From: Pseudomonadota bacterium
Lineage (GTDB): Bacteria; Pseudomonadota; Gammaproteobacteria; Burkholderiales; Burkholderiaceae_C
Direction of reading: 5' to 3'
DNA: 64,000 nucleotides
NCBI GenBank assembly: GCA_020161775.1
Contig: JAIUOW010000012.1
Location: 1-64,000 of the forward strand
Shown: piece after piece, positions 9,429 to 50,600 of the stretch
How positions within the stretch are numbered: position 1 is the stretch's first letter
How the letters are laid out: every line of letters begins with the position of its first letter
The notes under the pieces: model-generated
What the model saw: only the letters and a program-made list of their open reading frames with translations
Told to the model about the DNA's origin: nothing
Database searches by the model: none
Program-made: the position numbers and the translations under genes

Positions 9429-10742
9429 GTGTCCATGACACGTACATCCCTCGCCACCGGACTCCTTTGCCTGGCCCTGCTGATGCAGGCTGGCTGGGCC
9501 GGTGCCGCCGACGAGAAGAAAAAGCGCAAGAAAAAGCCGCAGCAGACCAGCCAGCAGGCGAGCAAGGCCGAGCGCCAGCGCAGCAAGGCTGCCGCACCGG
9601 CTCCAAGGCCGGTGGCGCGCCCCGCGGTGCGCGACGGCGAGACCGAGGCCCGCCTGATCGAGGTGTACCGCCTGATCGGCCAGGCCCGCGGGCGCGACGC
9701 ACTGGCCCGGGCCGAGGCGCTGGTGCGCGACCACCCCAACTTCCAGCTGGCGCAGCTGGTGTACGGCGACCTGCTGGCCGCGCAGGCCCGGCCGGTGCGC
9801 ATGCTGGGCGACGTGCCCGACACCACGGCCCGCGCGGGTGCCGCGCTGCTGGCCGAGCTGCGCGACGAATCGCAGGTGCGCATGCGCGCGCTGCGCGAGC
9901 GCCCGCCCGAGGGCACCGTGCCCTCGCAGTTCCTGGCGCTTTCGCCGCGCGTGAAGCACGCCATCGCGGTCGATGCCTCGCGCTCGCGCCTGTACCTGTT
10001 CCAGAACACCGCCACCGGCCTGAAGCTGCTGGCCGATTACTACATCTCGGTAGGCAAGCTGGGGATCGAGAAAGTGGTCGAAGGCGACCAGCGCACGCCG
10101 CTGGGCGTGTATTTCATCACCAGCAACCTCGACCCGAAGTCGCTGAAGGATTTCTACGGCTCGGGCGCGCTGCCCATCAACTATCCCAATGCCTATGACG
10201 CGCGCCGCGGCAAGACCGGCAGCGGCATCTGGCTGCATGGCACGCCGCCCAACCAGTTCTCCCGCGCACCCAAGGCCACCGACGGCTGCGTGGTGCTGGC
10301 CAACCCCGACCTGGAGCGCATCATCAGCACGGTCGAGGTGCGCACCACGCCGGTGGTCATCGCCCAGACGCTGCAATGGGTGGCCCCGCAAAGCACGCGG
10401 AACGAGGCGCAGCGCTTTGAAGAGGCGCTGAATGCCTGGCGCACGGCCAAGTCCAGCGGCGACGCGGAGCGGGCATTGGGTTTTTACGCGGCCGACTTTT
10501 CCGCCGGCGGCAAGAACCTCGCGCAATGGGCGCCGACGCTGCGCAGCGAGGTGGAACGCGTGCGCGGGCGCGAGATCGAACTCAAGGACCTGACCTACCT
10601 GCGCTGGACCGATACCGCGGACACCATGGTGGTAACCTTTGGCGAGGTGGCCAGCGGCGCGCGCAGCGGCGCCACCAAGCGCCAGTACTGGGTGCGCCAG
10701 GGCCAGCAATGGAAAATTTTCTACGAAGGAGTGACCGGATGA
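9429..10742 (+). CDS. L,D-transpeptidase (YkuD domain) with NTF2-like C-terminus
   Basis: It should act in the periplasm, making or removing cross-links between peptidoglycan and other groups. The N-terminus is a signal peptide followed by a very Lys-rich patch ([10 protein letters not shown]). A TPR-like or helical part precedes the YkuD domain, whose active site reads HGTPP...TDGCVVL, with the catalytic Cys and upstream His visible. The last 110 or so residues resemble the NTF2-like domain of the preceding gene product. GTG at 9429 has the better-spaced purine-rich stretch; the ATG at 9435 is an alternative start. It lies four bases behind the TPR gene and overlaps the next start. Confidence 0.9.
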
Positions 10743-46211: not shown

Positions 46212-47057
46212 ATGAACGCAGCCGCCGATCGGCTTGAATTCGCACCACCGCCGCAGCCCGGCCTGTTGCGCGCGTTCGTGCTGGCTGTCGTGGCCCACCT
46301 GCTGTTGCTGGCCGCGCTGACCTGGGGCGTGCGCTGGAAGAACGACACACGCGAGCTGTCAGCCGAGGCCGAGCTGTGGTCCAGCGTGCCCGTGCAGGCC
46401 GCGCCCAAGCTGGTGGAAGCGCCGCCCGCGCCACCGCCACCGCCCAAGGTGCAACCGGCGCCCGCGCCGCCACCGCTGCCGCGCGAAGCCGACATCGCCC
46501 TGGAGCGCGAAAAGCAGAAACAGGCTGAGGCCAAAAAGAAGCAGGACGAGCTGGAGCGGCAAAAGCGCCTGCAGGCTGAAAAGCTGGAAGCCCAGAAGAA
46601 GCTGGAGCTGGCCAGAAAGGCCGCCGAGGACCAGAAAAAGCAGGACGCAGCGCTCAAGGCCCGCGAGCAGCAGGAAGAAGCCAAACGCCTGGAAGCCCAG
46701 CGCCAGGAGAACCTCAAGCGCATGGCGGGGCTGGCCGGTGCCACGGGCGGCCCCACGGCCACTGGCACGGCCCAGCGTTCCGCCGGCCCGTCGGACAGCT
46801 ACGGCGGGCGCATCCGCGGCCGCGTCAAACCCAACATCGTGTTCACCGACGACATCCCCGGCAACCCGGTGGCCGAGGTGGAGGTACGCGCCGCGCCCGA
46901 CGGCACCATCGTGGGCGTGAAAATCATCAAGTCCAGTGGCACGAAGTCATGGGACGACGCCGTGGTGAAAGCCCTGCACAAAACCGAGGTGCTGCCGCGC
47001 GACATCGACGGGCGCGTGCCCTCGCCCATCGTCATCAGCTTCCGGCCTAAGGACTGA
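46212..47057 (+). CDS. tolA: Cell envelope protein TolA
   Basis: TolA spans the periplasm and links TolQR to Pal and TolB. The 281-residue protein has an N-terminal membrane helix (about residues 18-37), a Pro-rich stretch, a long Lys/Glu/Ala-rich coiled coil (EREKQKQAEAKKKQDELE and on), and a C-terminal TolA/TonB-like domain from about residue 195 (PDGTIVGVKIIKSSGTKSWD). tolB and pal, which often follow, are not in this window; palindromic repeats come next. Confidence 0.93.
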   Translation: MNAAADRLEFAPPPQPGLLRAFVLAVVAHLLLLAALTWGVRWKNDTRELSAEAELWSSVPVQAAPKLVEAPPAPPPPPKVQPAPAPPPLPREADIALEREKQKQAEAKKKQDELERQKRLQAEKLEAQKKLELARKAAEDQKKQDAALKAREQQEEAKRLEAQRQENLKRMAGLAGATGGPTATGTAQRSAGPSDSYGGRIRGRVKPNIVFTDDIPGNPVAEVEVRAAPDGTIVGVKIIKSSGTKSWDDAVVKALHKTEVLPRDIDGRVPSPIVISFRPKD

Positions 47058-47088
47058 GCTGTTATTGTTCTTGCTCTTGCTCTTGTAC

Positions 47089-47320
47089 GCAAGGTTGTGG
47101 GTGGGGCTGCTGGCGCTTCACTGCGACGGTCCGGCCTGTGGCCGGACTTCCCTGCGCTGCTCAAACTGCGGGGCGGAGTTTGAGCACTTCGCAATGGCGC
47201 TGATACGCGCCATTCCATAAATCGCCCAAACCCCGGTCCGCCCTGCAGGCGGACTGCCCCCGCAGTTCTGCGCTGCTCGGCGTCGCAGAGGCGCGCCAGC
47301 AGCCCCACCCACAACCTTGC
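47089..47320 (-). repeat. Palindromic structured element, copy 1 (232 bp)
   Basis: The copy is bounded by perfect 28-bp inverted repeats (47089-47116 and 47293-47320). Inside are further hairpins: GTCCGGCC with GGCCGGAC, a TCAAACT/AGTTTGA arm, the core AATGGCGC with GCGCCATT (core at 47187-47224), and a GTCCGCC/GGCGGAC hairpin. The reverse complement of this copy aligns along its whole length with copy 2. There is no transposase. Open frames in it contain MEWRVSAPLRS but are products of the repeat. Confidence 0.85.
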
Positions 47321-47398
47321 AGCCTGCGTGCTTGTGCGCCACTGGTCACGTTGACCAAGGGCCCGGCTGTTGAACCTTTGCGTGCCAACAGTGTTGCT

Positions 47399-47629
47399 GC
47401 AAGGACGGGGGGTAGGGCTGCAGCGGCGCCTCTGCGGTGCCGAGCACCGGAGTGCAGCGGGGGGAGTCTGGCCGTAGGCCAGACCGGCGAGGACGATTTA
47501 TGGAATGGCGCGTATCAGCGCCATTGCGAAGCGACCGCAGCCGCCCCGCGGAACGAGGAGCGCAGGGGAGTCCGGCCATCGGCCGGACCACCGCAGTGAA
47601 GCCGCTGCGGCCCTACCCCCCGTCCTTGC
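47399..47629 (+). repeat. Palindromic structured element, copy 2 (231 bp)
   Basis: Bounded by 29-bp inverted repeats with one mismatch (47399-47427 and 47601-47629). It aligns with the reverse complement of copy 1, with an identical 38-bp core (47494-47531). The arms differ: this copy has AAGGACGGGGGG where copy 1 has AAGGTTGTGGGT, yet both stay self-paired. One inner hairpin is GTCTGGCC/GGCCAGAC where copy 1 has GTCCGCC/GGCGGAC. The two copies lie 78 bases apart between convergent tolA and dnaE. Confidence 0.85.
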
Positions 47630-47680
47630 CGACGGGATGAGAAAGGCAACTCGCAGACTGCTCGATTGCCGCAGCCCGTG

Positions 47681-50600
47681 CTATTCGTAGACGATCTGCG
47701 CCTGGCCTTGGTCGGCCTGCGCCATCCAACTAGCCAGAGCTGCATCGCTAGGAAAGAACTTTTGATCATCCAAACGCACTTTGTCTTCGGCCACAAAGTC
47801 TGGATATATCAAGCGGAAGCGCACACCTAAGCCTCGAATCAGTTCACCTTGTTCTGACATTTCCCGTTGGGCAGGGAAACTCTTGAACAATTGCTCAACG
47901 CTGGGAGGTTTTCCTCCATCTGAACGATTGACCTGCACTCGCAAGAATTTGCCGAAGCGGCAGCGCGCCGTGGCCAGGTCCCAGACCTGGTTCACGGTCA
48001 GTTGCAGGCCGCCCGAGAAACGGTCGGGCTGCAGCTTGCCCATCACGATGATGAGTTCGTCTTCCTTGAGCAGGTTGCGGTTGGCGTTGATCAGGGCCTC
48101 GTCCGCACGCGCGTCAATCGTTGCCGATTTGTCGTCCAGCTTGAACAGCGCCAGCTTGCCGCGCTGGCCGTTGATCACGCGAAAATCGCTGACGATGCCC
48201 GCCAGCAGCTGCGGCTCGCGGCTGTCGATCAGTTCACCGATCTCGCGCCTGACGAAGCGCCGGACCTCCTGCGACACCTCATCGAACAGGTGACCCGACA
48301 GGTAAAAGCCCACGGCCGTCTTCTCAAAAGTCAGACGCTCTTTCACGCCCCAGGGCATGGCCTCGACCAGGTCGGGCTCCTGCGTGCTGGCGGCGTGGCT
48401 GTCGCCCATGTCAAACAGGCCGCCCTGGTTGGCATTGGCCTCGGTGGTGCTGGCAAATTCGAACGCCCGGTCAATGGATGCGACCAGCGAGGCGCGGTTG
48501 AGCTGCAGGTTGTCAAACGCACCGGCCTTGATCAGGGCCTCCACCGTGCGCTTGTTGATGCGCGTGCGGTCCACCCGCACGCAGAAGTCATACAGGCTGG
48601 TGAAGGCGCCGCCTTCCTGGCGCGCCCGCACAATGGCCTCAATGGCCTGCTGGCCCGTGCCCTTGACGGCACCCAGGCCGTAGCGGATGACCTTGTCGGA
48701 CATCGGCTCGAAGCGGTAATTGCCGCGGTTGACGTCAGGCGGCTCGAACGTCAGGCCGAAGTTCTTGACGGCGTCCTCAAACAGCACCTTGAGCTTGTCG
48801 GTGTTGTCCATTTCCACCGTCATGTTGGCGCAGAAGAACTCCGCCGTGTAATGGACCTTGAGCCAGCCCGTGTGGTACGCCAAAAGGGAATACGCGGCCG
48901 CGTGCGACTTGTTGAAGCCGTAGCCCGCGAACTTCTCCATCAGGTCGAAGATTTCATCGGCCTTGTCCTGCGGGATGTTGTGCGTGGCCTGTGCACCGGC
49001 GCGGAATTTCTCGCGGTGCTCGGCCATCTCGTCGGCTTTTTTCTTGCCCATGGCGCGGCGCAGCAAGTCCGCGCCGCCCAGCGAGTAGCCGCCCAGGATC
49101 TGCGCGGTCTGCATCACCTGCTCCTGGTAGACCATGATGCCGTAGGTCTCCGACAGCATCTGGGCCACCGCCGGGTGCGGATACTCCACCTCTTCGCGGC
49201 CGTGCTTGCGCGCCACAAAGCTGGGGATCAGGTCCATGGGCCCTGGGCGGTACAGCGCGTTCAGGGCAATCAGGTCTTCCAGCCGCGTGGGCCGCGCGTC
49301 GCGCAGCATGCCCTGCATGCCGCGGCTTTCAAACTGGAACACGGCTTCGGTCTTGCCGTCGGAAAACAGCTTGTAGGTCGGCTTGTCATCCAGGGGGATG
49401 TTTTCAAAGGCGAAGTTTTCCTGCCCCTTGTGACGCGCGACGATGAACTCCTTGGCAATTTCCAGGATGGTCAGCGTGGCCAGGCCCAGAAAGTCGAACT
49501 TCACCAGGCCCGCGGCCTCCACGTCGTCCTTGTCGTACTGGCTCACGGCCGAATCACTGCCCGGCTGCTGGTACAGCGGCGTGAAATCGGTGAGCTTGCC
49601 CGGGGCGATCAGCACGCCGCCCGCGTGCATGCCCACGTTGCGGGTCATGCCCTCCAGCTTCTGCGCCAATGCCAGCAGCGTCTTGACGTCGTCTTCCTTT
49701 TCCAGCCGCTCGGCCAGCAAGGGCTCGACCTTCAGCGCGCCGTCAATCGTGATGTGCTGGCCCGGCTTGTTGGGGATGAGCTTGCTGATGCCGTCGCAGA
49801 AGGTGTAGCTCATGTCCAGCACGCGGCCCACGTCGCGGATGGCCGCGCGCGCGGCCATGGTGCCAAAGGTGGCGATCTGGCTCACCGCGTTCTTGCCGTA
49901 CTTGTCCTTGACGTAATCGATCACCAGGTTGCGGTTGGTCTGGCAGAAGTCGATGTCGAAGTCGGGCATGGACACCCGCTCGGGGTTCAGGAAACGCTCG
50001 AACAGCAGGTTGTACTGCAGCGGGTCCAGGTCGGTGATCTTGAGCGAATACGCCACCAGCGAGCCAGCGCCCGAGCCCCGGCCTGGGCCGACCGGGCAGC
50101 CATTGGCCTTGGCCCAGTTGATGAAGTCGCCCACGATCAGGAAGTAACCGGGAAAGCCCATCTTGAGGATGGTGCTGATCTCGAACTCCAGCCGCTGCAC
50201 GTAGCGCGGCATCTCGCGCTCGCGCTGTGCTGCGTCCGGGTACAGCCGCAGCATGCGCTCCTTCAGGCCCTCATGCGAGGCAAAGCGGAAGTACTCCTCG
50301 ATGGGCATGCCGTTGGGCGTGGGAAAGTCCGGCAGCCGGGGCTTGCCCAGCTCCAGCGTCAGGCTGCAGCGGCGTGCGATTTCCGCCGTGTTGGCAATGG
50401 CCGACGGCACATCGGCAAACAGCGCCTGCATCTGCGCGGCCGACTTGAAATACTGCTCGCGCGTGAACTTGCGCACGCGCCGCTGGTTGCCCAATATCTC
50501 GCCTTCAGAGATGCACACGCGCGCCTCGTGCGCCTCGTAGTCGTCCTCCAGCGTGAACTGCACCGGGTGGGTGGCCACCACCGGCAGCTTCAGCCGCGCG

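Follow-up and report, generated by a model that had tools for sequence, protein, structure and literature searches.

A ~560-bp inverted doublet of palindromic units recurs across the family of its bacterial host and appears to be mobile

A composite of two inverted units

Between two convergent open reading frames, presumably tolA and dnaE (names carried over from the original prediction), the window, that is, the whole 64,000-nt stretch that was analysed, holds a composite of ~560 bp (~47076-47637) that consists of a palindromic unit A, a 78-bp linker and an inverted unit B and that lies 19 and 44 bp from the flanking frames. Unit A (47089-47320) is bounded by a terminal inverted repeat of 28 bp, perfect throughout, and unit B (47399-47629) by one that is perfect over 20 bp and extends to 29 bp with one mismatch. 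The units lie in inverted orientation, with 77% identity along their length and a 38-bp core (47187-47224 in A) that is the same in both, such that the 28-bp and 29-bp ends, the opposite orientation and the core named in the original prediction were all reproduced from the sequence. That prediction had further taken A and B for two copies of a 231-bp element, which we rejected because the composite recurs as a whole in the host's own genome; A and B are instead halves of a single element whose order is fixed and whose linker is nearly so. Its features, with Type 1 denoting the subfamily of this composite and R1 a covariance model described below, are as follows.

47076-47637, plus strand: whole composite (Type 1), comprising head, A, linker, inverted B and head; aligns end to end with copies C1, C9, C20 and C21 of the same genome at 86-92%
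47083-47088, plus strand: left head motif TTGTAC, T-rich outside; GTAC precedes A in 6/6 Type 1 A units, TTGTAC in 5/6
47089-47320, plus strand: unit A, with a ~40-bp outer stem carrying conserved mismatches, inner hairpins and core; R1 match of 133 bits
47116-47123, plus strand: 5' side of the conserved internal loop, CTTCACTG; GCTTCACT is invariant in 15/15 Type 1 units
47129-47147, plus strand: inner hairpin 1, GTCCGGCC/GGCCGGAC; other complementary pairs substitute in other copies
47187-47224, plus strand: 38-bp core found identical by unit comparison, including the hairpin AATGGCGC/GCGCCATT
47236-47254, plus strand: inner hairpin 2, GTCCGCC/GGCGGAC; two-sided indels between the near-identical copies C12 and C9
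47286-47294, plus strand: 3' side of the conserved internal loop, CAGAGGCGC; AGAGGCGC is invariant in 15/15 Type 1 units
47321-47398, no strand assigned: linker, containing the tail motif GTGCGCCACTGGT, which has a related counterpart in the linkers of Type 2
47399-47629, minus strand: unit B, inverted; R1 match of 132.6 bits
47630-47636, minus strand: right head motif, CCCGTCG on the minus strand; CGTCG precedes B in 6/6 Type 1 B units

Under a simple independent-base model, a perfect 28-bp arm pair this close together is expected ~2e-9 times per 64 kb. Folded as DNA, unit A reached -98.3 kcal/mol versus -51.6 +/- 3.4 for shuffles (z -13.6), and the composite can alternatively fold as one long hairpin instead of two separate units (-237.4 kcal/mol, z -17.7). 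Intact units measured 206-248 bp.

Copies in the host genome and among its relatives

Searching the host's own genome (32 contigs) with unit A, and scoring all 40 candidates, returned 40 matches, many of them close inverted pairs. These revealed full-length Type 1 composites at C12, C1, C9, C20 and C21, copies shortened by deletion at C18 and C22, and single units at C27 and, with GCGC at the left head position, twice at C6. A Type 2 subfamily of ~535 bp possessed the same architecture and resembled Type 1 in its internal loop, with a linker motif related to that of Type 1 and arms that are quite different; AGAGGCGC was also present in Type 2 A units and altered in Type 2 B units. The covariance model R1, built from 34 trimmed units and giving rough E-values, yielded 49 matches at E <= 0.001 among the best 150 of 7370 candidates in the genome, comprising 47 full-length units, one gutted unit (C20:41083) and one weak match (C11:100366). 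A further weak match within the window (10315-10429; 19.3 bits, E 0.004) reads as coding and is probably due to chance.

The doublet arrangement was strikingly regular. All 18 neighbour pairs within 700 bp in the own genome ran plus then minus, that is, tail to tail, with start spacings of 275-311, and so did all 39 neighbour pairs in four other genomes (G163, G091, G182 and G096, with 24, 14, 18 and 40 matches, respectively, summing to 96), where spacing was mostly 281-284 and, in G182, mostly 371-375. Of the 49 own-genome matches, 13 had no neighbour (one of them weak, and one at C18 with a gutted partner), as had 18 of the 96 from the other four genomes, and no second such palindrome adjoined any of six lone Type 2 units inspected; lone units may reflect single-unit movement or may be remnants. 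At C6, two like units (95%) lie 2.2 kb apart (L027:1841-3790) with a 326-aa ORF between them, which had no Pfam match, and a nucleotidyltransferase-like ORF just beyond them. The stretch between the two inserted units is possibly a small island. We considered this locus as a candidate cargo-bearing or autonomous version of the element; no transposase was recognised there.

Across the host's family, to which the survey was confined, R1 matched 168 of 299 sampled genomes and 88 of 141 genera, with at most the best 8 candidates scored per genome and rough E-values. Plain DNA similarity recovered 34 of 250 genomes, and an exact-pattern search for the internal loop matched 13 of 399 family genomes (3 with a backward control), a pattern too strict and therefore replaced by the covariance model. 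The double architecture was visible by eye in G105, G163, G103, G158, G171 (one half gutted) and G232. In G232 a doublet was nested within another repeat with arms of its own (L065:1055-1620, with similar stretches at L143 and L146), and this may represent an additional subfamily whose outer arms differ. The original prediction had called for a count of copies in related genomes and had weighed the alternative of only two copies in one genome with no covariation; the counts show a multicopy element in many genera, and covariation is strong (below).

Relatives identified through TolA include by name Ramlibacter, Rhodoferax, Curvibacter, Polaromonas and Hydrogenophaga, all of which we take to be Comamonadaceae. 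Four unit references compared with 41 TolA loci, of which 23 covered the gap after tolA and not all had dnaE next, gave no full-length unit and three matches of 31-44 bp (E 0.001-0.005). Spread by plasmids was rejected, as blastn against 72,556 plasmid records gave no match, and a single exact pattern match among viral contigs, with no palindrome there by eye, was taken as chance.

Paired changes and strand polarity within units

Paired substitutions between arms and within inner hairpins, which the original prediction had seen in two copies, proved real and extend to the other copies. Double-sided changes were found at 26 of 82 pairs in Type 1 (15 units; four columns in which a wobble is the commonest pair were excluded from this first count) and at 50 of 79 pairs in Type 2 (20 units). 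Over 117 distinct units from five genomes, in an alignment fitted to the model and hence biased towards pairing, 94.0% of 4382 cells were paired versus 74.8% after shuffling, and 779 cells were double-sided versus 224 in shuffles (sd 10.6), a value reached in 0 of 500 shuffles; slid controls were 37-48% paired. Further pair types were not above shuffles (69 versus 72.5). Compared with the reverse complement of the other arm, own arms had a mean identity of 0.905 within a unit versus 0.54 between units, and this contrast was weaker in G091, G163, G096 and G182 (0.81-0.86 within, 0.59-0.72 between); identities were taken over fixed 33-nt windows for 115 of 120 matches in 68 loci, the five lowest-scoring having been dropped. 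The stems held 3223 pairs, 136 other mismatches and 71 indel columns.

Such covariation, together with the very stable fold of unit A and the many copies near gene ends, is what one would see if dispersed copies encoded a structured RNA, or an mRNA 3'-end stabiliser or terminator, with pairing selected in the transcript. RNA helices usually change via G-U intermediates, and the scarcity of wobbles therefore fits RNA selection poorly: outside helix 8, only 17 of 3926 cells were GT and 97 were AC, and transversion-type changes outnumbered transition-type ones 2:1 (479 versus 241). Helix 8 ran against this pattern (47 GT, 6 AC), and we think its alignment is ambiguous. Indels were matched on both arms (6+6 nt in the A unit of C10, 1+1 nt in C14a and in C23). 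Because of the few wobble pairs, the excess of transversion-type swaps and these matched indels, we favour a DNA-level process over RNA selection, be it selection for a DNA hairpin and/or copying from arm to arm.

The mismatches also possessed a strand polarity. In the outer arms of 115 units, read in unit orientation, we counted 54 distinct AC events versus 24 GT events (binomial p 0.0009, a value that is optimistic since copies are related); by unit, AC exceeded GT in 42 and fell below it in 14, with 59 ties. The own-genome alignments gave 31 AC versus 10 GT events, at 8:1 (A units) and 6:3 (B units) in Type 1, 9:1 (A) and 10:5 (B) in Type 2, and 1:1 in lone units. As A and B are inverted and yet show the same sign, the bias points to the bottom strand of the unit and not to a transcript, perhaps through better tolerance of G-T in that strand's hairpin or more deamination of it; one transcript does not account for both. 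No terminator-like or promoter-like site was found in 46900-47800, and Rfam returned nothing at gathering score (best match RsmW, 21.3 bits versus a cut-off of 52). We therefore consider selection on an RNA unlikely to explain the element.

Mobility and relation to known repeats

Copies occupy unrelated loci, intergenic in those inspected. Six comparisons covering four loci showed congeners without the copy, and on this basis the copies appear to be mobile. At one locus in G163 the conserved flanks stand ~420 bp apart, versus 63 bp in the congener G047. Eight loci of G096 were compared with four congeners. The element was absent from L366 in three of them, where 170 bp (G270), 30 bp (G391) and 51 bp (G196) separate the flanks, and from L361 in G270 (90 bp); the joined flanks of L363 align with G270 through the junction at 72% identity and ungapped where they meet. 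At the remaining five loci only single flanks or nothing matched, and no empty site was obtained. The intergenic DNA at most of the empty sites is diverged, and the congeners may have lost the element instead of its having been inserted in the other genome. A terminator hairpin beside the L363 insertion is also present in G270, and would be either older than the element or kept after its loss. At L390 of G270, the site of the G096 L366 element, there is a different long-stem palindrome, which may mark an insertion site used again or be a gutted unit.

The original prediction had proposed mapping insertion sites and flanking duplications, and at the flanks inspected by eye no target duplication was seen, nor any extra bases at the L363 junction (at its 72% identity). 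This bears on the reading of the element as a DDE-transposase MITE, in which the heads would serve as terminal inverted repeats. Heads are partly alike at both ends (in G096, ends of the TCGGGTGGGGC kind), as such an element predicts, but each unit is palindromic in itself, the inner structure also covaries and duplications were not seen, which makes this the least probable of the explanations considered here. Neither a transposase nor an excision product was found.

The insertion context differed between genomes. By hand and with a codon-composition heuristic, 19 own loci were assigned as 4 convergent, 13 co-directional, 1 divergent and 1 undetermined. The 30 nt outside the heads were enriched in T, at a fraction of 0.31 against 0.18 for the 28 own heads and of 0.38 against 0.17 for the 22 heads of G096. 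Terminator-like sites lay outside 8 of the 22 G096 heads, for which shuffles averaged 0.35, and outside 0 of the 28 own heads, for which they averaged 0.2. Several G096 copies (among L358-L368) sit a few bases past an intrinsic terminator, which is not so in the own genome. Terminators as a general target were rejected because none of the 28 own head flanks has one, an absence that also speaks against the RNA reading above.

Among described systems, the layout is closest to REPINs, doublets of REP sequences that form hairpins, in which the doublet is regarded as what replicates and single REPs as its remnants (Bertels and Rainey 2011, PMC3116915); the passages on them in that paper place REPINs in extragenic space, with a spacer of set length and compensatory changes noted by the authors. 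Our element likewise has two inverted palindromes, a set spacer and a recurring doublet (18/18 own and 39/39 other pairs). Unlike the short REP of that account, its unit is ~230 bp with a branched inner structure, its arms covary within each unit, and it is not associated with Y1_Tnp in the sampled genomes. It also resembles BIME/REP sequences in being extragenic palindromes of alternating orientation, but REPs working with TnpAREP are described as 21-65 nt long with a GT[AG]G tetranucleotide foot (PMC6006769, in its part on REPs), and own feet read by eye were GTAC or GTCG (Type 1) or CGCG/CTCG-like (most Type 2), not GTAG/GTGG. A term search of the main text of a further REP/TnpAREP paper (PMC3733652) found none of six Burkholderiales terms. 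The Betaproteobacterial repeat element (BRE) is, as summarised in PMC3110155, ~90 bp, sometimes tandem, mostly intergenic, multicopy and present in Comamonadaceae; ours shares the mostly intergenic position, the multiple copies and the inclusion of Comamonadaceae, but differs in size and layout, no double palindrome being described there, and is set apart by description, not by sequence. A description of such a family was not found in the open-access literature among the matches listed, and with no Rfam match at gathering score this agrees with the original prediction, whose author knew of no named family but allowed that the repeat may already be catalogued in related genomes.

A true REPIN or BIME with unusually large REPs, mobilised by a RAYT (a Y1 HUH transposase), would account for the inverted doublet with its linker and for the alternative folds as two units or one long hairpin, and the host does have one Y1_Tnp match (C1:279035). 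Across the family, however, Y1_Tnp (PF01797, E <= 0.001; 222 of 299 genomes) does not track the element: 122 genomes had both, 46 the element only, 100 Y1 only and 31 neither, so that Y1 was present in 122/168 genomes with the element versus 100/131 without it (Fisher p 0.51). No Y1 match was found in 15 of 58 genomes with at least 8 R1 matches, and no R1 match lay near the host's Y1 gene among the matches listed. For this reason RAYT was rejected as the mover, and a Y1 transposase does not appear to be it. As unit size, foot sequence and Y1 association all fail, the element works like a REPIN but we do not file it as one, and a RAYT-driven REPIN is in our judgement improbable.

The explanation we consider reasonably probable is a non-autonomous mobile inverted doublet of giant hairpins, akin to an oversized REPIN. 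Such an element would be moved as a folded single strand by a trans-acting enzyme encoded elsewhere, and complementarity between the arms of each unit would be maintained at the DNA level, through selection favouring DNA ends that can fold and/or through copying of one arm from its partner when hairpins are repaired. The mismatched loop CTTCACTG/CAGAGGCGC, which is conserved, is a putative protein recognition mark. More tentatively, the copies could represent a family-wide, non-RAYT class of hairpin DNA in which one arm keeps being recopied from its partner when the element is single-stranded, and in which the mismatch polarity shared by both inverted units marks the exposed strand. If this is true, it would let the arms of separate copies drift far apart yet remain complementary.

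The finding would add a widespread repeat family to a large bacterial group, with 47 full-length units in one genome, and offers a handle for finding an enzyme that acts on hairpins. It also carries a caution, as double-sided covariation, which is usually taken to prove an RNA, can arise with few wobbles in what appears to be mobile DNA. The clean covariation of the arms is a natural record of how bacterial DNA palindromes stay perfect.
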